Part shown: positions 1 through 54,000 of the stretch, piece by piece
Numbering within the stretch: position 1 is the stretch's first letter
How the letters are laid out: the number at the start of each line of letters is the position of its first letter
IMG/VR virus record: IMGVR_UViG_3300042691_023213
Span: 1-54,000 of that record
Origin: a virus
Length of the DNA: 54,000 nt
Strand: one strand, 5' to 3'
Position numbers and translations under genes: made by a program
The notes under the pieces: generated by a model
Database searches by the model: none
What the model was told of the DNA's origin: nothing
Seen by the model: the letters and a program-made list of their open reading frames with translations, nothing else

Positions 1-107
1 TGGGCTGGCCGTGGTCCAAGCGTGCGACCGGCTGCGGCTGCCTGTCCGCCCCCAAGCGAGCACTCGCTGCCGTCACCAACACCTTGAGTGGGGGGAACAG
101 CAAGTGA
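1..107 (+). CDS. C-terminal end of a zinc-type phage protein (continues from the right window edge)
   Basis: An open frame enters from the left edge (complete codons from base 3) and stops at TGA 105-107. It encodes a Trp/Lys-rich stretch, a GCGC motif followed by LSAPKRAL, and ends TLSGGNSK. The TLSGG comes from a copy of the dispersed 16-bp repeat. Its stop overlaps the GTG start of the next gene as GTGA, so the two are translationally coupled. Joined to the open frame at 53592-54000 it makes one uninterrupted protein of 171 residues with an N-terminal Cys cluster (CP..., CERC) and this C-terminal GCGC segment. I recognise the general look of a small phage virion-module protein but no function. 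Confidence 0.6.
   Translation, partial: GWPWSKRATGCGCLSAPKRALAAVTNTLSGGNSK
80..95 (+). repeat. Dispersed 16-bp repeat, copy 1 (CACCTTGAGTGGGGGG)
   Basis: Perfect consensus copy. It lies in frame at the 3' end of the upstream gene (read as TLSGG) and ends 8 bases before the GTG start at 104, so it could also act as the ribosome-binding region of the glycosyltransferase. Confidence 0.9.
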
Positions 108-835
108 TCCAGAAGATGCTGCATCATGTGTGGCTTGGTCCCAACGAGATTCCTGAGAGGGATCTGGTGTGGATTGGAGCGGCCCAGCGGGCTGTCCGTC
201 GCAACAGCGAGGATTGGCAGTGCGTCTTGTGGGTCAACTCGAAGACCAACGCCAGTCGCTATTCTGATCTGGGGGCGTCGCTGGTGCCCGAGCTGTTCAA
301 CCAGCAGATGTTCAACGAGATCCCCACCTTGTTCAAGGGCAACACCGTCTATGTGGTGCAGTCGGACATCGTGAGGATGGAGATGATTTGTCGGTACGGG
401 GGTGTGTACATAGACACGGATGTTGAGCTGTTCAAGCCGTTGGGACCGCTGCTGGATGGCGTGGAGCTGGCGTACGCCAACGAGTGGGGTGAGAGTCCCG
501 GCAACTACTGCTTTGCAGCGAAGGCTAACCATCCGGCCATGTGGACGTGCCTGCGTGAATTGGAGGGGCACTTCAATCAGATGAAGCAGGGGGGTCGAGT
601 TCAGAAGGATGTGCTGGGGCTGGCGGGGCCGATCTACTTGAGCAGGCAACTGCTGAAGTATCAGCCGGTGATCTGGCCTCATCGGGTGTTCAACCCGCTT
701 TGCTACATGCAGAACCCGGACAAGGTGGTCAAGTGGCCTGAGTGCTCGTACGGCAACCATCGCTATGATGGGAAGTGGTACGAGCGGCAGAAGACTGATC
801 CCGCTGAGTTTCCACGCATGGAGTATCTGCCGTGA
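104..835 (+). CDS. GT32-family glycosyltransferase (Gly_transf_sug / OCH1-like)
   Basis: A 243-residue protein. It begins with the family's HHVWLGP strand and carries the hallmark block SDIVRMEMICRYGGVYIDTD at about residues 87-106, with the metal-binding DxD at D104/D106. GT32 enzymes transfer a sugar from a nucleotide-sugar donor; in phages such enzymes may modify virion or host-surface glycans. GTG at 104 is preferred because it overlaps the preceding stop (GTGA). ATG 116 is the alternative and would lose only four residues. Its own stop overlaps the next start in the same way (GTG 832). Its position inside the tail module suggests a substrate on the virion or cell surface, which is inference. 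Confidence 0.85.
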   Translation: MIQKMLHHVWLGPNEIPERDLVWIGAAQRAVRRNSEDWQCVLWVNSKTNASRYSDLGASLVPELFNQQMFNEIPTLFKGNTVYVVQSDIVRMEMICRYGGVYIDTDVELFKPLGPLLDGVELAYANEWGESPGNYCFAAKANHPAMWTCLRELEGHFNQMKQGGRVQKDVLGLAGPIYLSRQLLKYQPVIWPHRVFNPLCYMQNPDKVVKWPECSYGNHRYDGKWYERQKTDPAEFPRMEYLP

Positions 836-14286: not shown

Positions 14287-15234
14287 TCAGGTCGCTGACG
14301 CGGGTGAGGGTGAAGCAGATGCCGACACGGTATCTGCAACGCACTTGTCATAAATCTTGAGGAACTCGGTGAACGCAGTGTGGTCGTTCGGCACGTCGAA
14401 CTGATCAGGCAGCTGGACGCGACGACCGAACACCTTTTCGAGTCCGGGCTGGCTAGCCTGAACTCGCAAACGTGACTCGATCCTCACGTCCGACTTCTTC
14501 ATCTTCGTGCCGTTGGCCAGCGTGATCTCGCGGGTGATGGGGGTGGAATGGTCGAAACAGGAGATGCCCATCATGAGGTCGGCGAGCGGGAAGAGCCGCT
14601 TGTAGAGGCCGTCGGTGATTGCCACGTCGAGCCGCTGGGCGGTCTTGCCGCCGTCGTCGATGGGGATGTTGATGTAGGTGAGGTGGACCACCACCCCCAC
14701 ACCGTAGCCCGCGTTCTTGAGGCTGTTGAAGATGCGAATCAGCTCTGAGTACGCCGCCTCATAGGCGCGACGAGATTCGGTGATGTCTTGGAAGGTGGGG
14801 AAGTTGAGCTTGGTAGCGACCCACTGCTTGACCATCTCGTAGCAGGTGGTGAGTGAGTCGAAGTGGACGACGCGGGGCCGAGGACGCTTATTCTTGGCAG
14901 CGTCCAACAGTTGAGTTTCGAGTTCCCTGATAGAATCCCACGAAAAGTTGAAGGGAGAACCCGTAGATGTGATGGGGCCGGGCCGCTCAGGGTCGGTAGA
15001 CATGTGCGGCCACACCTGACAGCGGGGGTGGTACTGCGGCCCCAAGTCCGAGTTGATGATGAGCGCACCTTCGTAACCCTGAAGGAAGCGGGACTTGCCC
15101 TGCTTAGGCAATCCGCAATAGAGCACGATCGAGTTGAGCGGCGTGTTGAAGTGTGCAGTGCCAGTCGCCCCGAACGATCCGTAGATCTGCTGGATCGACT
15201 GGCCTGCTGCAAGTGTGTGCGTGGCTTGACTCAC
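14287..15234 (-). CDS. Sak4-like RecA-fold ATPase (phage recombinase)
   Basis: A 315-residue protein. The Walker A motif GLPKQGKS is at about residues 41-48 and a Walker B-type strand RVVHFDSLTT at about 121-130, followed by a RecA-core arrangement including VGVVVHLTYI. Such AAA24/Sak4 proteins drive phage homologous recombination together with an SSB, which is the likely product of the next gene. Start is GTG 15234 with AAAGGATG upstream; it lies 11 bases from the preceding stop. The C-terminal 25 residues are Ala/Ser-rich. Confidence is good for the ATPase fold and moderate for the recombinase role. Confidence 0.75.
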   Translation of the reverse strand: MSQATHTLAAGQSIQQIYGSFGATGTAHFNTPLNSIVLYCGLPKQGKSRFLQGYEGALIINSDLGPQYHPRCQVWPHMSTDPERPGPITSTGSPFNFSWDSIRELETQLLDAAKNKRPRPRVVHFDSLTTCYEMVKQWVATKLNFPTFQDITESRRAYEAAYSELIRIFNSLKNAGYGVGVVVHLTYINIPIDDGGKTAQRLDVAITDGLYKRLFPLADLMMGISCFDHSTPITREITLANGTKMKKSDVRIESRLRVQASQPGLEKVFGRRVQLPDQFDVPNDHTAFTEFLKIYDKCVADTVSASASPSPASAT

Positions 15235-15874: not shown

Positions 15875-17131
15875 TTACTTTTCGTCGGTAGCGTCGCGTG
15901 GGCTGATGATGAGGTTGTTGTCGCTCATCACCTTGGGCCAAGCGATGGGGGATGAGAGGTAGAAGGCGGCATAGGGAGAGAGGCCAGACTGGTGAGACCA
16001 GCAGCCGTCGTGGAACTGGGGGAAGAAGGCGGGTTCGGCAGGCATCGTCGCATAGTGGTTGATCTGGTCAATGGACTTGTAGGTCTGGGCGATGACGTGA
16101 TCCTGCTCGAAGTAGGAGGCAGAAGTGTAGGAGATGTTGACGACAGGGCAAGTCTCTCGTTCAAGTTTTTCGGTGACGTATTCACCTTCTGCGGTGTACC
16201 AGTCACGCACTCGTTTGAGGTAGTTGCCGAGCACGGGGTCGCCATACATCTTGCTGGTTAGGCGGACTACACCTTTGTCGGGTCCACGAGTCAGAGTCTT
16301 CTCGATGGTGACAGTGTTGCGGTCTTTGCCACTGAAGCGGATGGACGGCTTCTGGACGCAGATGTGCGTCATGCCACCATAGGTGGTGTCGGAGGGCAGG
16401 CCGTACTCTTCCTGTAGGGTTTGAGTGCGGAGGGCCTCCATGATGGCGATGCTGTAGAGGCGGGTCTGAAACTCCAAGGGGCACACCTGAGCCCGCTCGG
16501 AGGGCTTCTTGGTGGTGGTCTTGTAGTCGATGATGAAGAGCCGCTTCTTGATGCTGTCGTAGAGAAGGGCGTCGGGCACGATGCGTACGGCGGTGGTCAC
16601 GCCGCTGAGCTTCACGGTGATGGCGGGTTCGCAGGCCACGACGGAAAGGCCGGGCTGCGTGAGGTAACGACGGATGGAGAAGCCGGTCGTTGAGATGGGG
16701 GTGTCGAGTGCGCACTGAGCCCAGACGCAGGCTTCGAGGCATCGCTTCTTCTCGTCGTCGAGCATGAGTTGGATGGAGCCGGGAGATTGGCCGAACAGTT
16801 TACCGTAGTCGGTGAGTTCGGTCAGGCGGTGGTCGAGACACGCCTTGACGAAGGGCGAGTCGAGTTCGTCGGGGGAGCCGGGCTCGGCGTTGGGCTGCCA
16901 CCCTTCCATGTACTTGTGGAACCACGAGCCGTGTGAGAGGGCTTCGGAGTTCTTGATGGCAGGCACGATGGAGAGCCGCCGGACGAGGTAGTAGAGGAAG
17001 GGACAGTTGCGGACAAGGGAGGAGTCAGAGGAGCGGATGAGGGGGGTGCGAGCGACGAGGCCGTTGTGAGCGAGCCAGTCGGACGCGTCATAGAGGGAAG
17101 TGAACTGGGGAGTGGGGGTGGGGGGTGGCAT
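15875..17131 (-). CDS. PD-(D/E)XK nuclease, RecB/Cas4 type
   Basis: A 418-residue protein with the motifs of the family in order: SSLVRNCPFLYYLVRRL near residue 40, the HGSWFHKYMEG motif (catalytic-type H72), PDALLYD with D187, the core IDYKT (D202, K204) and motif IV FQTRLYSI (about 221-228). Phage enzymes of this type are 5'-3' exonucleases that produce single-stranded DNA for annealing recombination, consistent with the SSB- and Sak4-like genes downstream. Only a single Cys is near the first motif, so the Cas4-type iron-sulfur cluster is probably absent. Start ATG 17131 overlaps the preceding stop (TGATG). Confidence 0.8.
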   Translation of the reverse strand: MPPPTPTPQFTSLYDASDWLAHNGLVARTPLIRSSDSSLVRNCPFLYYLVRRLSIVPAIKNSEALSHGSWFHKYMEGWQPNAEPGSPDELDSPFVKACLDHRLTELTDYGKLFGQSPGSIQLMLDDEKKRCLEACVWAQCALDTPISTTGFSIRRYLTQPGLSVVACEPAITVKLSGVTTAVRIVPDALLYDSIKKRLFIIDYKTTTKKPSERAQVCPLEFQTRLYSIAIMEALRTQTLQEEYGLPSDTTYGGMTHICVQKPSIRFSGKDRNTVTIEKTLTRGPDKGVVRLTSKMYGDPVLGNYLKRVRDWYTAEGEYVTEKLERETCPVVNISYTSASYFEQDHVIAQTYKSIDQINHYATMPAEPAFFPQFHDGCWSHQSGLSPYAAFYLSSPIAWPKVMSDNNLIISPRDATDEK

Positions 17132-30322: not shown

Positions 30323-30987
30323 TGTGAAGCACCTTGAGTGGGGGGTGGGCCGGGTGGGACGATGGTGGGTGTGGAGATGGCGGGTGGTGAGCCGGAGAGG
30401 TGGGTGGAGAGGAGGGAGAGGTGGGAGAAGGCGGTGGACTTGCGCTCGGGGCGGAGGAGGATCTCGGCGGGGTCGAGCGTAGCGAAACGTTGGATGGAGA
30501 AGGGGGTGGAGGGGAGCGGGAAGACGGAGCCTTGAGTGGAGAAGGCTTCGGCTTGGGAGCAAGGAGAGTGGAGGAGAGAGTGGAGGGAGCGGACGGCTGG
30601 CGCGCCGATGCAGAGGATGGGGGTGGGGGTGGGGGGAAGGTGAGGGAGAAGGGAGAGGAGGGTGGGGAGGAGGTGGGTTCGAGAGCAGGTGGTGTAGAAG
30701 GCGGGCTTCACGCGGGAGGGGGCGGTGACGACGCAGCGGAGGATGGGGATGAAGATGGGTGAGATGGGGGGAAGGAGGGGAATGAAGGCGGAGGAGACGA
30801 GACGGTAGGTGCGAGAGGCGAGGATGGAGCCGGAGCGAGAATCGGTCGAGGGGGCGGGGAGCAGGATGATGAGAGGGGGGTGAGTGAGGGAGGAGGGGAG
30901 GATGGGAGGGACGGGATTGAAGAGGGCGGTCTCGTGCTGGGGACAGGAGGTGCAGGGTGCGATAGGCAGGGGAGTGGGCTCACGCAT
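30319..30987 (-). CDS. Uracil-DNA-glycosylase-superfamily-like protein
   Basis: A 222-residue protein starting MREPTPLPIAPCTSCPQHET. The layout resembles family-4/5-type UDGs: CxxC near the start, a strand LIILLPAPSTDSRSG in the place of GEAPG, ILCIGAPAVRSLHSLL, and the C-terminal block FATLDPAEILLRPERKSTAF, like the 'T.HPa.lLR.p' end of the family. The catalytic water-binding residues of known UDGs are not clearly conserved, so it may bind rather than cleave DNA. The start overlaps the upstream gene; the end holds a repeat copy. Assignment is by pattern only. Confidence 0.5.
   Translation of the reverse strand: MREPTPLPIAPCTSCPQHETALFNPVPPILPSSLTHPPLIILLPAPSTDSRSGSILASRTYRLVSSAFIPLLPPISPIFIPILRCVVTAPSRVKPAFYTTCSRTHLLPTLLSLLPHLPPTPTPILCIGAPAVRSLHSLLHSPCSQAEAFSTQGSVFPLPSTPFSIQRFATLDPAEILLRPERKSTAFSHLSLLSTHLSGSPPAISTPTIVPPGPPPTQGASQ
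30330..30345 (+). repeat. Dispersed repeat, copy 14 (C-terminal codons of one gene and Shine-Dalgarno of the next)
   Basis: Perfect consensus. Read as PPTQG at the end of the UDG-like gene, while its AAGGTG precedes the ATG at 30322. Confidence 0.9.
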
Positions 30988-31229: not shown

Positions 31230-32207
31230 TTAGGAGGGGAGGTCGGTGGGGATTTGGGGGAGGGGACCGCCACGGGTGCGTTCGAGGAAGCCGTGGGGGT
31301 TGGAGGCGTCCTCCTCCGTGCGGGAGAGGATGCTGGGACGAGACTGGAGGTTGTGTGCCGGGTTGGCACGGGACATTGCGGCTTCGATGGAGGGGGTGAT
31401 GCGGACGGCCCGCACTTCACTAAGGTAGTGCTCGGTGTTGGGGTCGTGGGGGATGGTGTCACGGCGAGCGGGTGGGGTGGGCGGGGTGACAGTGACTGGA
31501 GAGCGTAGTGTGTCTTGGTCGGCTTCTTCGTGGAGCCAGCAGGCAGGCGGGGTGTGGAAGGAGCGTTGAGCGTAAGTGATGACAGGGAAGCCGGTGAAGC
31601 GGCGACGGATATTGTCGAGCATCAAGCAGGCGAGAGCGGTGTTGCCGTAGAGGGTGGTGGGCACGCCGCATGAGCCGGGCTCGGGAGGGACGGCGGAATC
31701 GGGGAAGTGAGCGGAGAGGTAGGAGGCGTAGGAGGGGGCGTCGAAGATGGAGCGGAGGACGTAGTCGATGGCGCGGACACGGGGGGAGAGGTAGAGGTAG
31801 GGATCTGGACGATTTTCCAAGTGGGGGATGAGCTTGGAGGCGATGAAGGCGTCGGTGTCGCGTGAGTCTACGCAGGAGCAGACGATGGGGGTACAGGAGC
31901 GGAGGTCGTGGGCGGCGGACCAGCGACGGGCGTGGTAGGTGATGGAGATGGAGGGACGGGCGATGCGGAGTTCGGAAGCGAGAGCTTCGACCTTGAGGAG
32001 GCCGAGCTGGGCAGCGGACCAGCCTTGGGGGCCGAGGTTGTGCGGCTCGATGGTGTCGAAGTCGATGAGGGTGAGGTGTGTGAAGCCGGTGTAGGCGAGT
32101 TGGCGGGCGAAGGCTGCGCCGGTGCCGCCGCAACCGATGATGGTGACGGGGAGGGAACGGATGGAGGGAGGGAGGAGGGCGGCGAAGCGGGTGTCGTCGA
32201 TGGTCAT
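31230..32207 (-). CDS. ThiF/E1-like adenylating enzyme of a ubiquitin-like cassette
   Basis: A 325-residue protein. The nucleotide-binding motif VTIIGCGGTG is at residues 21-30, the acidic strand LTLIDFDTIEPHNLG at about 46-59 (D49, D51, N57), a conserved Lys at 72, and CVDSRD (D114): the ThiF/MoeB/E1 Rossmann core that adenylates the C-terminus of a ubiquitin-like protein. GSCG at 179-181 offers a candidate thioester Cys (C180). The C-terminal 90 residues are Arg/Pro-rich. ATG 32207 overlaps the stop of the JAB gene (ATGA), so both are co-translated. It would act with the E2-like and Ubl-like products encoded upstream in the same transcript. Confidence 0.8.
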   Translation of the reverse strand: MTIDDTRFAALLPPSIRSLPVTIIGCGGTGAAFARQLAYTGFTHLTLIDFDTIEPHNLGPQGWSAAQLGLLKVEALASELRIARPSISITYHARRWSAAHDLRSCTPIVCSCVDSRDTDAFIASKLIPHLENRPDPYLYLSPRVRAIDYVLRSIFDAPSYASYLSAHFPDSAVPPEPGSCGVPTTLYGNTALACLMLDNIRRRFTGFPVITYAQRSFHTPPACWLHEEADQDTLRSPVTVTPPTPPARRDTIPHDPNTEHYLSEVRAVRITPSIEAAMSRANPAHNLQSRPSILSRTEEDASNPHGFLERTRGGPLPQIPTDLPS

Positions 32208-33778
32208 GAGTACAACTCCTGCTGGGTGGTGGTCTTGAGGGCGGTGAGGGAAGTGACGAGTTCGTCGAAGACTTCTGTGAATGCAGTGTCGAGAGCGTCG
32301 GACTCTGAGAAGGTACTGTGCTCGCAGATGTGGGACCAAGCGAGTTCGTAGCGAAGGAGGCAGCCGACGGCGAGGATGGATTGGTCGGGGTTGAGAGTGA
32401 GGAGGAGGGTGTTGATGCGGGACACGTCGGAGGGGGTCCACTCCCACTCGTCACGGGCAGCAGACCACGAGATGCGGAATGCGCCGGTGGATTCGTCGTA
32501 CTGGAAGACGCGGGAGTCGGCGATGAAATCCTTGATGTCGGAGACGGAGATGGGAGAGGAGTGGGGTCGCCACTCGATGGCGTAGAAGGCTTCGTACCAA
32601 GTGTCCTCGGGGTTGGTGGGGTTGAGGCTGGGGTTGAAGATGGGGAGCAGGGTGGGGAAGGTGGAGGGGGTGAGCATGGCACGCCACTTAGAGAAGGAGG
32701 TGGCACGCTTGTACTGGACGAGGGGGCCAGAGTCAGATTGAGACTTGGATTGAGCGAAGTAGGGGGTGAGGGAGGAGGCGAGCCATGTGGCAACAGGGGT
32801 GAGGAGGGTGCCCATGAAGGACTGCATGTTGCCGATGAAGTCGTGCCACGCTTTGCGGATGACGGGGGCAGCGTCGGGGTGAACGAGGTAGGGGAAGGAT
32901 TCGGAGTCGGGAATGAGCCACGACTGGTTGACAGCTTCGGAGAGGGGGATGTAGCCGAGGGAGCGGGCGTGCTGAGAGGTGACGGATTGGAAGGGAGGGT
33001 GAACGAAGGAGGAGAGCTGGGCGTAGAGGGAACGCTTGAGGGCTTCGTTCTTGGATTCGGACTGGGTGTGCCAGTTGGTGGTGAGGTTGTGGGAGTAGAT
33101 GGTGGCGGGAGTGATGGTGGGTGCGCCGGGATTGGCGGCGAGGGCGGACTGGAGGAAAGCGAGACGATCGGCGGGGGAGAGGGGGAAGGGTGTGCCATCT
33201 TCGAGGAAGGCACGGAAGGGGCAGTAGTAGAGGAGCTTGGCCGGGCCGTCGTAGACGGGAGGGGAGGAGGCGAGAGCGGGGAAGCCGGGGATGACGGCGG
33301 GGCCAAGGGGATAGCGGACGCGGAGAGAGAACTCGGGGAAGGCGGTGGGTGAGGTGGGGCGACCGAAGATGAGCATCATGGCGAAGGGGCCAGTCGATTG
33401 GACGGTGCGCCAGTTGGAGTCGTCGCCGCCGGAGGGGGTGGCGGACTCGCCGGGGTGGGTGTGGAAGATGAGGTTGGTGCAGCAGGGGAGTGCGTTGGGG
33501 GAGGTGTCGAAGACGGAGAGCGAGTCGGTGGGGTCGATCTCGAAGGAGGCTGCGGTGGATTGTTGGCGGGGGACGAAAATGTCGATGATCTTGAAGGGAT
33601 CGGCGGGGTCGGGTATGAGGAGAGCGGCGGTCTCGCGGGTGCGGAGCGGGTTGGGCTCGTCGTTGGAGATGGAGGGAGCAAGGGCGAGCAGGTGGAGTTT
33701 GAGGTAGGCGAGAGCGGAGAGGGTGACGGTGGGCTGGACGGTGGGATGGTCAGACGACGGCGGCTTGCGATTCGACAT
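32204..33778 (-). CDS. JAB/MPN+ (JAMM) metalloprotease with a long C-terminal extension
   Basis: A 524-residue protein. The JAMM signature is complete: E49 in TRETAALLI, then HTHPGESATPSGGDDSNW with zinc ligands H106 and H108, S116 and D119 (H-x-H-x7-S-x2-D). JAB proteases of this type process or remove ubiquitin-like proteins. The domain covers about residues 15-170. Residues 170-524 are a distinct region of unknown fold with several Trp and a C-terminal WSHICEH, from a 22-base repeat shared with DNA polymerase. ATG 33778 has GGAG at 7-base spacing and overlaps the E2-like gene by 29 bases. The stop overlaps the E1 start. Confidence 0.8.
   Translation of the reverse strand: MSNRKPPSSDHPTVQPTVTLSALAYLKLHLLALAPSISNDEPNPLRTRETAALLIPDPADPFKIIDIFVPRQQSTAASFEIDPTDSLSVFDTSPNALPCCTNLIFHTHPGESATPSGGDDSNWRTVQSTGPFAMMLIFGRPTSPTAFPEFSLRVRYPLGPAVIPGFPALASSPPVYDGPAKLLYYCPFRAFLEDGTPFPLSPADRLAFLQSALAANPGAPTITPATIYSHNLTTNWHTQSESKNEALKRSLYAQLSSFVHPPFQSVTSQHARSLGYIPLSEAVNQSWLIPDSESFPYLVHPDAAPVIRKAWHDFIGNMQSFMGTLLTPVATWLASSLTPYFAQSKSQSDSGPLVQYKRATSFSKWRAMLTPSTFPTLLPIFNPSLNPTNPEDTWYEAFYAIEWRPHSSPISVSDIKDFIADSRVFQYDESTGAFRISWSAARDEWEWTPSDVSRINTLLLTLNPDQSILAVGCLLRYELAWSHICEHSTFSESDALDTAFTEVFDELVTSLTALKTTTQQELYS
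32318..32339 (-). repeat. 22-base exact direct repeat B, copy 2
   Basis: Identical to 23979-24000. Read as WSHICEH near the C-terminus of the JAB protein. Confidence 0.75.
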
Positions 33779-35813
33779 TGGACGGCTCCGGGATGGGGTG
33801 CGAGTTGATGGCAGCGAAGTGGTCTGCAACGATGCGGTCCACTTCGTCTTGAGTGCTGGCTTGAGCGATGAGGGTGTCAGCGATCTGAGAGAAGGGAGGG
33901 CAGACGATGACACGGAAGAAGTCGGAGAGGCGAGAGATGGTGGTGGGCAGGTCGGTGGGAGATGACGGGTTGTCTATGGGGGAGGGATCGAGCAACAGGA
34001 TGGGGCGTAGATGCGGGGGCAGCTCGTTGAGCCGCATGAAGGTGCGACCTGCCCGGGCGGCGGTGATGGCAGTGAGGAATGTGTCGTATCGCCAGAGAAA
34101 CTTGTCGATGGCAGCAGCGTTGGCAAAGTAGATCTGTTCGTGGAGGGGAATCGAGAAAGCGTAGCGAGTGTGGGTTGAGCCGGAGAGGGTAGCTGGAATC
34201 TGCTCCGTAATGGGGTCGCAAGTGAAGAGGTGGTAGAGGGGGAGGTGGTTGGAGATGAGGGTGGCGGGGAGGGGAAGGGGCGGGGAAGGATCGCCGAAGG
34301 AGGGAGTGGGAACGGAGAGGTGAGGGGTGAGGGTGCGGACGAAGCGAGCTTGGAAGTGGTGGGAGAGCGGCTTGTGTTGGCCGGGAGTGGTGATGGTGTC
34401 GCGGATAGCGGAACGGACGAAGGCTGAGATGGAGTGGGAGTTGATGGTGTAGGTATGATGCGAGAAACAGTAGTCGTCAAGGAAAGAAGGGGTGATGTGG
34501 AGTGGGCAGTTGTCGGTGTCGTCGTAGCCGTAGTTGGGATCGGCTGTTGTAATGCGGAGAGAGGGTAGTTCGTAGGAGTCGGTGAGGGTGGTGGGGTTGT
34601 GTAAGAAGTGGGTGTGGAAGCAGGGGACAGGGACAAGGCAGGGGGCGTGGTGAGGGTCAGGGTCTCTGCGGATGGCGGTTGGAGTGACGCGGGAGATGGG
34701 GCGTATGCCGGAGGTGGCGGGGTCGTAGGACTCGTTGCAATGGGGGCAGACGGTGATGGGACCGGAAGCGGAGATGTCGGAGAGTTGGAAGTAGGGGGAG
34801 CCGGGGTTGTAGGTGGAGAGGACGGAGAGTGTGTCGGCGATGAGCGAGTAGTAGTCGCCGTTGTAATAGCGAGAGGCGCAGGTTTCTTTGTAGTGGTTGG
34901 AGTGGCAGATGGTGGCGTAAGGAGAAGAAACGCGGGAGCTGGAGATGTGGGGGTGGCGGAAGGAGTGAGGGAAGGTCGAGCCGGGGCGGGGGCGGGTGGA
35001 ATGGGTGCGGATGGAGTAGGGTTGGAAGAATTCAATCTGGCGGTTGGACATATAGAAGGAGTTAGATGCGTCGGGAGAGTTGGCGTAGGGAGTGGTGCGG
35101 GTGAAGTCGTTGAGGGAGAGATGGAGGGGGAGGATGCCACGGACAGCGGGGAGGAGAAGGTACTGGCCGAGATTGTCGGAATCGCAGGTGAAGTTGGGGA
35201 GGAAGCCTTCGAGGAACCGCATCTTGATAGGGTGGGTCTGGAAGTAGAGGGTCCACTGAGAACTGGAGTGGTTGAGTACGAGGTAGGAGAGGGGGAAGAA
35301 GTGACGGGCGGCGGAGACGAGGTTGTCGAAAACGGAGAGCCAGTGCAGGGGGTGGCTGCGGTTGGGCTTGAGAGGGTTGAAGGGAACGGGTGGGACGAGG
35401 GAATCGAGGTAACTAATGGTGGTGGAGGCGGTGGCGGCCTGGGAGAGGCGGGTGAGCGAAGCGCGGAAGCGGTGGAGGCGAGCGGAGGTAGGGCTGGCGA
35501 GGAAAGTGGAGGCGCGGGAGGAGAGTTCGCGGGCAGTGAGGAGGAGGCGGATTGCTTCGCGGCGAGAGGAGAAGGAGGGGGCGGGATCTAGGGCGCGGTG
35601 GGCGTAGCGGGAGAAGACTCGGCGGGCGGCGGCAATGTCAGAGTCGGAGGAGAGGGAGTAGGCGACGAGGTTGGAATGGCGGGTGAAGACGGGACCGGGA
35701 GCCGTGAAGTTGGGGTAGGAAAAGGTCGAGCCGTCGAAGTTGATTGGGTCGGGACTTTCGTAGGGGAGAGGGGGGAAGAGGTCGGTGAGGGTGGCGTGCG
35801 GGGAGACGGGCAT
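33750..35813 (-). CDS. Large protein with an E2 (UBC)-like domain
   Basis: A 687-residue protein of otherwise unknown type. Residues 254-340 follow the E2 plan: a strand RQIEFFQPYSIR, a Pro-rich step, then FRHPHI (287-290, in place of HPN), a longer loop, ATICHSN with a candidate catalytic Cys at 303, then LIADTLSVLSTYNPGSP (324-340), which matches the 'L..I..LL..pNp..P' helix-turn after the E2 Cys. CPHC at 356-359 may start a zinc-binding segment; N- and C-terminal regions are unassigned. Start ATG 35813 has AGGAG at 8-base spacing, from a repeat variant. It lies between the Ubl-like and JAB/E1 genes, which strongly supports the E2 reading. Confidence 0.6.
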   Translation of the reverse strand: MPVSPHATLTDLFPPLPYESPDPINFDGSTFSYPNFTAPGPVFTRHSNLVAYSLSSDSDIAAARRVFSRYAHRALDPAPSFSSRREAIRLLLTARELSSRASTFLASPTSARLHRFRASLTRLSQAATASTTISYLDSLVPPVPFNPLKPNRSHPLHWLSVFDNLVSAARHFFPLSYLVLNHSSSQWTLYFQTHPIKMRFLEGFLPNFTCDSDNLGQYLLLPAVRGILPLHLSLNDFTRTTPYANSPDASNSFYMSNRQIEFFQPYSIRTHSTRPRPGSTFPHSFRHPHISSSRVSSPYATICHSNHYKETCASRYYNGDYYSLIADTLSVLSTYNPGSPYFQLSDISASGPITVCPHCNESYDPATSGIRPISRVTPTAIRRDPDPHHAPCLVPVPCFHTHFLHNPTTLTDSYELPSLRITTADPNYGYDDTDNCPLHITPSFLDDYCFSHHTYTINSHSISAFVRSAIRDTITTPGQHKPLSHHFQARFVRTLTPHLSVPTPSFGDPSPPLPLPATLISNHLPLYHLFTCDPITEQIPATLSGSTHTRYAFSIPLHEQIYFANAAAIDKFLWRYDTFLTAITAARAGRTFMRLNELPPHLRPILLLDPSPIDNPSSPTDLPTTISRLSDFFRVIVCPPFSQIADTLIAQASTQDEVDRIVADHFAAINSHPIPEPSNVESQAAVV

Positions 35814-35820
35814 GATGGGA

Positions 35821-35834
35821 ACTCCTGAGTGGGG
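35821..35834 (+). repeat. Dispersed repeat, copy 15 (one-base deletion, Shine-Dalgarno of the E2-like gene)
   Basis: ACTCCTGAGTGGGGG. One T of the core is missing, giving CAGGAG on the minus strand. Confidence 0.65.
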
Positions 35835-35845
35835 GAATGGAAAGA

Positions 35846-35871
35846 GCAGGACAGCCGATAGGCCATCCTGC
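35846..35871 (-). terminator. Weak terminator or attenuator between the Ubl-like and E2-like genes
   Basis: On the minus strand GCAGGA pairs with TCCTGC, with an inner GCC/GGC extension, followed by TCTTTCC. It could make the Ubl-like transcript more abundant than the enzyme genes. Confidence 0.5.
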
Positions 35872-35894
35872 CCGAGTCAGCACGGTGAGTCACT

Positions 35895-35910
35895 GACCTT
35901 GAGTGGGGGG
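35895..35910 (+). repeat. Dispersed repeat, copy 16 (one base after the Ubl stop)
   Basis: GACCTTGAGTGGGGGG directly past the stop codon of the Ubl-like gene. Confidence 0.85.
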
Positions 35911-35911
35911 A

Positions 35912-36166
35912 TCAGTTGCCCTTCTGCTGGGTGAAGGTGGCGAACACGTCGGACATGTCGGTGACGACCGTGTTGTTGATCCCATCCGGCGTGAGGGCGG
36001 TGATGGTGGAGGTGCCCGCCGCACGGTAGGTGATGGCGTACCCCGACTCGCTGAAGGGGACACCAGCAGCGGTGAGGACGGCAGCGACGGTGCTGCCCTC
36101 GGGAACCTCAAAGACGCGGCGGGTGTTGTTGCGAGAGTCGGTGACGCGAACGTTGGTAACAGCCAT
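35912..36166 (-). CDS. Small beta-grasp, ubiquitin-like protein candidate
   Basis: An 84-residue protein. The predicted order, strand (TNVRVTD), strand (RRVFEVPEG), helix (STVAAVLTAAG), strand (GYAITYRAA), further short strands (TITALTP, TVVTD), fits the beta-grasp fold. The length is right for a ubiquitin-like modifier. The C-terminus is QQKGN: no GG, but a Gly followed by one residue that a JAB protease could trim. ATG 36166 has AAGGAG at 7-base spacing. It heads the cassette Ubl, E2, JAB, E1, the composition of bacterial ubiquitin-like operons such as PRTRC (known family context). Fold and role are inferred. Confidence 0.5.
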   Translation of the reverse strand: MAVTNVRVTDSRNNTRRVFEVPEGSTVAAVLTAAGVPFSESGYAITYRAAGTSTITALTPDGINNTVVTDMSDVFATFTQQKGN

Positions 36167-52667: not shown

Positions 52668-53582
52668 ATGCCCTTCGACTCTTCCAATTTCGGCTATCGA
52701 ACGCTCCCGAGCTGGCTGCAAGACTTTGTGGCGGGCATGGGTCCGTCCACCATGTCCAACCTCCGCCAAGGCTTCCAGCAGGAGACTGTGCGTCCGGGCG
52801 TTCGCATCAACTTCGACCGCGAGTTCGCCAACCGCAACGCCTCCATGTCCGAAGTCCTCTCCCAAGTCTTTACGCAGCCCGGCCAAAACGCCCTGACGCC
52901 CGGTCGCACCTTCAACCCCATTCAGCAGAACAACCCCGAACCACCCATTCCCCCGCTCATTCCGGTGCCTCCCGGCGAACCAACCAGCCCCCCGCCTCCC
53001 AGCGGCGGCTCCGGTGGCTCCGGCTCCGGCGGCTCAGGCGGCAGCGGCTCCGGCTCCTCCGTCGCTTTCTGCGACCCGCTCGGCCCCTTCGGCTCCATCT
53101 GCGACCCCGACTGTCTTGACGTGCCTTGCTCTGACTACTTTGGCGAGCCGATGGGAGTGAGCCCGCCCGTGACAGGGCCATCCGCTTGCGCAACTGTTCA
53201 AGTTGATTCTCAAGGAAACATGTATCCTCTCTGTGGTTGCTCTATTTGGTATGGAACCTGCAACTACTACAGTTGGGATGGCGATGCTTGCTATGAGACT
53301 CGTCAGTTGTTCCCTATCAGGATTTCGTTCTGTTGCTATGAAGGACTGGGAATCAGCGGGTTTTCGTCTGCGTACGGTGCTGGGACTCCGATTCAGTATG
53401 TGCAGCATCAGGTGATCGGTACTCCTGTCGCATTGGACGTGTGTGAGACGTACCGGGAGTTCATCGAACTGGCCTACCCGAACGGAGTGTCCGGCCTCGG
53501 ACTATGTGGTCCTTGGACCACCTGCGTTGGAGATCCTGAAGTCTGTGAAGCTGTGCCCAATGTTTCTAAGTTCTGTCCGTGA
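52668..53582 (+). CDS. Virion protein with Gly/Ser linker and Cys-rich C-terminal domain
   Basis: A 304-residue protein. Residues 1-95 look like an anchor (NFGYRTLPSWLQDFVAGMGP); 96-135 are Pro then Gly/Ser-only linker (GGSGGSGSGGSGGSGSGSS); residues 136-304 carry more than 15 Cys in a compact domain (FCDPLGPFGSICDPDCLDVP, ISFCCYEGLG). The DNA changes at about 53140 from C-rich to noticeably AT-richer, suggesting the Cys-rich domain was acquired separately. An anchored, disulfide-stabilised surface or receptor-binding domain is plausible. Unrecognised. Confidence 0.55.
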   Translation: MPFDSSNFGYRTLPSWLQDFVAGMGPSTMSNLRQGFQQETVRPGVRINFDREFANRNASMSEVLSQVFTQPGQNALTPGRTFNPIQQNNPEPPIPPLIPVPPGEPTSPPPPSGGSGGSGSGGSGGSGSGSSVAFCDPLGPFGSICDPDCLDVPCSDYFGEPMGVSPPVTGPSACATVQVDSQGNMYPLCGCSIWYGTCNYYSWDGDACYETRQLFPIRISFCCYEGLGISGFSSAYGAGTPIQYVQHQVIGTPVALDVCETYREFIELAYPNGVSGLGLCGPWTTCVGDPEVCEAVPNVSKFCP

Positions 53583-53591
53583 GGAGCAGCC

Positions 53592-54000
53592 ATGAGTGAG
53601 ATGATGGGGAAGTGTCCGATGAGGAGGCCGCAGTCGTGCGGACTGCTCGATGTGCAGTTGGGGTTTGTGCTGGGTGTGGACGATGTGTTCTGTGAGCGGT
53701 GCCACGAGTTGGGACCGGGCACCCAGCAGGCTCTTGAGGTGAGGACCGGGCTGGTCCAGTTGACAGTGGACCAGATGAAGCCGAGGTGGCCGAACATCGG
53801 GCACCCCGGCCTACGCGATCTGGTGGGCAAGGCCATGAGCGACGGAGAGCGGGCGGCTGCCGCGAGCAAGCCCACGCCGACACGGGCGGGTCCAAAGAAG
53901 ATGAAGTGGCTGGGCCTGACGTGGGAGGGTGTGCCCTATCCGTGGCTGCTGGGCGTGGCAGTCGTCAAGGGCGTGCGGACGCTGTGGGCGGAGGTCAGGC
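53592..54000 (+). CDS. N-terminal part of a zinc-type phage protein (cut by the window end)
   Basis: ATG 53592 lies 9 bases after the previous stop, behind GAGGAGCAGCC. The frame is open to the last base (136 codons plus one base). It starts MSEMMGKCPMRRPQSCGLLD, with CERCHEL 25 residues later: CP...C...CxxC, a likely zinc-binding head domain. The last codons (LWAEVR) continue in frame into base 2 of the window and stop at 107. Confidence 0.65.
   Translation, partial: MSEMMGKCPMRRPQSCGLLDVQLGFVLGVDDVFCERCHELGPGTQQALEVRTGLVQLTVDQMKPRWPNIGHPGLRDLVGKAMSDGERAAAASKPTPTRAGPKKMKWLGLTWEGVPYPWLLGVAVVKGVRTLWAEVR

Follow-up and report, generated by a model that had tools for sequence, protein, structure and literature searches.

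In bacteria, conjugation of ubiquitin-like proteins (Ubls) is known as a host defence against phages, both in CBASS (PMC10097602) and in Bil, for which PMC13373217 cites Hor et al. 2024. The BilABCD system is defined by a double Ubl, a two-module E1, and a CEHH motif in the E2 (BilB) (PMC11354881). Closest in logic to the genes described here is the plasmid PRTRC system (type 6d of Iyer 2006), whose genes follow the order Ubl, F, E2, JAB, and ThiF with short overlaps. A phage with its own modifier, E1, candidate ligase, and protease would use this chemistry for itself.

Such a set lies in the window, which is the whole stretch of 54,000 nucleotides analysed (positions 1 to 54,000 of IMG/VR record IMGVR_UViG_3300042691_023213). 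The window is phage DNA, as indicated by its large terminase (PHROG 38, 8e-37), and the phage is represented by a metagenomic source only. A second IMG/VR contig, 99.6 per cent identical to the window in the longest aligned block, connects position 54000 to position 1 and yields a circular map; it ends at 30653, shortly before the operon. This otherwise near-identical contig diverges from the window at 53057–53598 (about 540 bases). When the window terminase was used as a single-protein query against IMG/VR, this contig was the sole match. Elsewhere in the window are a glycosyltransferase gene with a DXD motif (11–835, plus strand; Pfam PF04488, 1e-11) and minus-strand genes with matches to a Sak4-like annealing ATPase (14287–15234) and an exonuclease (15875–17131), which may be a recombination pair.

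The operon consists of four minus-strand open reading frames (ORFs) at 31230–36166, in the order Ubl, a 687-aa protein, JAB, and E1. Every one of the four starts is preceded by an AGGAG-like or GGAG ribosome-binding site, and in the annotated frame only, codon usage is genome-like, in agreement with the genes for terminase and exonuclease. The JAB gene starts at 33778, so that its first 29 nt lie within the 687-aa gene; the E1 gene starts at 32207, forming an ATGA overlap with the JAB gene. The original prediction had the ORFs, their coordinates and order, and the residues named in them right, and the ORF coordinates bear out the ATGA junction that it described.

Two of the four assignments made there, E1 and JAB, were upheld, and we regard both as firm on the strength of profile matches and intact catalytic residues. 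The E1 gene (31230–32207, minus strand) encodes a 325-aa ThiF-family adenylating enzyme with a single adenylation domain (Pfam PF00899, 1.1e-20), which in PDB matches MoeB, UBA5, NEDD8 E1, and SUMO E1. It retains the ATP-site residues of the GxGGxG, DxD, and Lys pattern, namely the nucleotide-binding loop GCGGTG (32118–32135, minus strand), D49, D51, and K72. Additionally, its Cys180 (GSCGVPTT; 31668–31670, minus strand) aligns with a cysteine in the E1s of crAss-like phages (TICSYKQTT) and of the gut element L007 (SACGIVQG); judged by eye, this SC[SG] motif is also present in PRTRC ThiF (PSCSxxEAL). In a profile search the window E1 was similar to defence E1–E2 models, and in the E1 tree it sits on a long branch whose placement has no resolution. 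The JAB gene (32204–33778, minus strand) encodes a 524-aa JAB/JAMM metalloprotease (Pfam PF14464, Prok-JAB, 1.2e-7) with the JAMM motif HTHPGESATPSGGD (33422–33463, minus strand). Its active site, of the form E...HxH(x7)SxxD, is complete (E49, H106 and H108 of HTH, S116, and D119), and it is followed by a C-terminal extension of about 390 aa with no recognised fold. Neither E1 nor JAB found relatives in IMG/VR as a single-protein query. A DNA pattern for the E1 returned no viral loci and 85 genome loci, of which the 80 examined were mostly multi-ubiquitin type E1s with a JAB–E1 fusion.

The first gene of the operon (35912–36166, minus strand; ribosome-binding site AAGGAG) encodes an 84-aa predicted beta-grasp protein that ends in QQKGN, with the Gly of its Lys-Gly-Asn terminus penultimate rather than last. 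It had no family match above the cut-off in Pfam, PHROGs, NCBIfam, or PADLOC. The structure model (pLDDT 58) follows b-b-a-b-b-a-b, which is the ubiquitin order, and the 50 PDB fold matches listed are by name all ubiquitin-like or other beta-grasp proteins (prob 0.93–0.99), including Raf RBD, FERM F1, PB1, RA, DIX, ferredoxin, and ubiquitin variants. Because the alignment behind the model was built with crAss-like and L017 Ubl sequences, mostly from crAss, the model supports the beta-grasp fold rather than proving it. HMM comparisons of the protein with the Ubls of crAss, L007, and PRTRC were marginal at best: against the crAss Ubl profile, hhalign gave only P = 0.009, and the hmmsearch score was not above that of shuffles. 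The 84-aa protein is probably a beta-grasp Ubl, as had been proposed: the predicted order of elements agrees with the proposal, whereas the low confidence of the model and the absence of a sequence match in those libraries weigh against it.

The gene in the E2 position (33750–35813, minus strand), identified as a coding frame, encodes a 687-aa protein with an HxH..Cys motif. The candidate E2 site comprises HPH at residues 287–289 (34947–34955, minus strand) and the candidate catalytic Cys303 (34905–34907, minus strand). On the 3' side of this site, the sequence contains a possible zinc module, CPHC...HHAPC....C (C356, C359, C392, and C398; 34620–34748, minus strand), with a sub-threshold match to the Pfam FmdE treble clef (E = 0.015, residues 350–366). 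The protein gave nothing above the cut-off in Pfam, PHROGs, NCBIfam, PADLOC, or PDB sequences, single-protein scans of IMG/VR and GTDB yielded no relatives, and HMM comparisons with the crAss gp78, L007, and PRTRC counterparts were not significant. An interpretation of the protein as a fusion of PRTRC F and B was rejected, as it resembles neither. From gene position and motif it is plausible that the 687-aa protein is an E2. The HPH and Cys303 on which the original prediction based this call are indeed present, but the protein has no homologue in the searches above, and the pattern HP[HN]x6-20C arises in 7.8 per cent of shuffles of its sequence.

Weak E1 matches in annotated phages led to the crAss-like phage cr128_1, in which a Ubl gene, an uncharacterised gene, a JAB gene, and a ThiF gene occur in this order. 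The uncharacterised protein belongs to the gp78 family. In the collection, 74 phage records contain relatives of it, and these include Bacteroides phages, Flavobacterium phages, and uncultured phages. In crAss001, gp79 is the Ubl, gp78 the HxH..Cys protein, gp77 ('metalloprotease') the JAB, and gp76 ('ThiF') the E1, and these genes lie between those for DNA primase and uracil-DNA glycosylase, as they do in DAC15 and other Steigviridae. The same order (Ubl, HxH..Cys protein, JAB, and E1) also occurs in cr111, in Flavobacterium phage Fpv1, and in the gut elements L007 (MT835544) and L017 (IMG/VR), and all four genes are present in 12 of 20 IMG/VR loci from the scan, with most of the others cut at locus ends. 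The cassette loci in our set are L009 (4211–8621, crAss001 gp79–gp76), L010–L016, and L023–L042. The view that a phage-borne set is exceptional needs revision, since crAss-like phages, Fpv1, and both gut elements have sets in the same order.

Several of these loci have features of their own. In Fpv1 (L011, 5857–8149), the JAB gene is broken near HxH by an apparent homing-endonuclease element on the opposite strand. A reverse transcriptase-like gene with a YADD motif directly follows the E1 gene in L007 (6954–8291) and L017 (9455–10687). The 595 kb phage LR756511 (L006, 6681–8606) carries a JAB-like gene, a 214-aa gene, and a ThiF gene.

In the paper collection searched, nothing relevant linked crAss-like phages to ThiF, JAB, or ubiquitin, and we claim no priority; neither the genome description of crAss001 (PMC6235969) nor a survey of crAss-like phages from 2021 (PMC7886860) mentions ThiF, JAB, or ubiquitin. 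Apparently, the Crassvirales cassette of Ubl, HxH..Cys protein, JAB, and ThiF between primase and uracil-DNA glycosylase is undescribed.

In the alignment of crAss Ubls, an invariant Ser-Gly separates a beta-grasp-like domain from a C-terminal tail, an arrangement that fits a modifier matured by cleavage. In cr106_1 (L013, 3705–4908), an HNH gene lies at the point where the Ubl is split, and the Ubl frame ends in KKIKSGKF, two residues past the Gly. Matches of the crAss Ubl profile to SipD were discarded as chance or compositional, as they fall in the helical tail outside the beta-grasp part. The crAss gp78 family has HSH and, 16 residues later, a Cys in all 19 aligned sequences, and its model (pLDDT 80) consists of a helix, four strands, HSH, Cys, and two helices, with a helical insertion following strand 1. 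In the model this order of elements is that of an E2, and we predict that gp78 is one. A Foldseek comparison of the model with PDB matched no solved E2, and that with BFVD returned chiefly its own family.

As far as sequence comparison goes, only the E1 and JAB of the window and crAss sets belong recognisably to the same families, with gene order alike. At the same level, the Ubl and the 687-aa protein of the window are unusual in their divergence, having no sequence relative in anything searched. Most interesting is that several lineages share this gene order, with parts that are highly diverged. Laboratory tests of the idea that a phage uses this chemistry for itself are already feasible, because a set in the same order occurs in phages that are cultured and sequenced, namely crAss001 (Bacteroides intestinalis), DAC15 (B. 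thetaiotaomicron), and Fpv1 (Flavobacterium psychrophilum).

We hypothesize, with moderate confidence, that the window carries a phage-encoded operon for Ubl modification, functioning in the manner of the sets of four (Ubl, E2, JAB, and E1) found in bacteria. A role of the phage set in Ubl activation and removal is likely, and full conjugation is somewhat more probable than its opposite. In the proposed cycle, the terminal Asn of the Ubl would be trimmed, probably by the JAB, exposing Lys-Gly; the E1 would then adenylate the trimmed C-terminus; the 687-aa protein would take the Ubl onto a cysteine, for which we propose Cys303, and pass it to a substrate; and the JAB, besides maturing the Ubl, would strip it from targets. 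Of these elements, we infer the maturation step, the E2 activity, and the beta-grasp fold of the Ubl, the last from its model. Because the crAss-like cassette lies among genes for DNA primase, helicase, and uracil-DNA glycosylase, we suspect that the system acts early in infection, with proteins of the phage or the host as its targets. The wider proposal, that several unrelated phage lineages, including the abundant crAss-like gut phages, run a complete Ubl conjugation cycle of their own during infection, using E2 classes outside the family libraries searched, we put at slightly below an even chance.

The Ubl might instead be activated without any E2-type conjugation, either as a sulphur carrier or for modification of a small molecule or peptide in the style of ThiS, MoaD, or MccB, with the 687-aa protein bearing a zinc site and serving as a partner or substrate. 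The single-domain, ThiF/MoeB-like E1 would suit this role, as would a 687-aa protein that lacks an E2 match in the libraries searched, whose HPH..C is reproduced in about 8 per cent of shuffles, and in which a sub-threshold CxxC...HxxC....C pattern follows. However, no sulphur-transfer or biosynthetic gene was recognised among the operon neighbours tested, and the gene order recurs in crAss-like phages with an invariant HxH..Cys partner, so we consider this explanation unlikely, if deserving of some weight. A counter-defence decoy is more doubtful still. Here, the phage Ubl, E2-like protein, and JAB would disturb conjugation by host Bil, Bub, or type II CBASS, with the JAB removing host Ubl or the phage Ubl serving as a false substrate, for example. 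Bacterial use of Ubl conjugation against phages and the similarity of the window E1 to defence models speak for such a role, but a decoy would need neither a matched JAB nor an E1 that is intact in every ATP-site residue, and a set of the same order is retained in phages of Bacteroides and Flavobacterium, which are very different hosts. That the phage carries the set to ward off competitors, in the way that plasmids or prophages carry Bil, is very improbable: its four-part gene logic does resemble Bil (PMC11354881), but the crAss-like cassette occupies a conserved position in a replication gene block, unlike mobile defence cargo, and no defence-type regulator or effector was recognised beside the window operon.

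As a proposed phage-encoded Ubl modification operon, the window set can be compared with each of the known systems. The tail-associated Ubl of lambda I/K is located beside a JAB-NlpC protein and lacks an E1, whereas the window has an E1 and a JAB without a recognised NlpC domain. With the multi-ubiquitin operons (type 6e) and CBASS Cap2/Cap3, the window set shares an E1 adenylation domain and a JAB, but in type II CBASS and types 6a–6c and 6e, JAB and E1 or E2 and E1 are fused, whereas the window genes are separate. BilABCD likewise has separate genes for Ubl, E2, JAB, and E1; in contrast to its defining features, the window has one 84-aa Ubl and one adenylation domain, and the context of C303 does not contain the C-x5-E-x-H-x4-H of BilB.

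Among phages and related elements, L007 and L017 have a 76–78-aa Ubl-like protein, a JAB (PSGxD), an E1, and a large protein with a PHI..C motif. They differ from the window in a Ubl that does not have the C-terminal Gly, in an E2-like protein that is not homologous to that of the window (hhalign), and in the reverse transcriptase gene after the set. The Steigviridae gp79–gp76 set resembles that of the window in gene order, overlapping middle genes, the JAMM HxH..SGxD, a single-domain E1, and an HxH..Cys protein, but its Ubl and E2-like protein are not detectably homologous to those of the window, its Ubl has a long C-terminal tail, and its gene neighbourhood is unlike that of the window.

The differences from PRTRC are several. 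The window ThiF scores 29.4 bits against the TIGR03736 cut-off of 144.75, and none of the window Ubl, E2-like protein, and JAB aligns with its PRTRC counterpart (C, B, and A, respectively); specifically, the E2-like protein and PRTRC B, which has a conserved Cys and a downstream His, gave an hhalign P of 0.3. PRTRC C has a conserved C-terminal Gly, whereas that of the window Ubl is penultimate (KGN), and the window E2 candidate has the upstream HPH, whereas 6d E2s have no upstream His. The window also has a JAB with a long C-terminal extension, and no separate F/E gene was found in it, whereas in PRTRC an F gene separates Ubl from E2. Because PRTRC C, B, and A do not align and the E1 falls far below the cut-off, we do not assign the window set to PRTRC. 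Nevertheless, its logic is closest to that of PRTRC, with which it shares the succession of Ubl, E2, JAB, and ThiF genes with short overlaps, a Ubl ending in or near KG, the SC[SG] motif of the E1 as judged by eye, and an E1 that matches PRTRC ThiF in hhalign (P = 3e-8).
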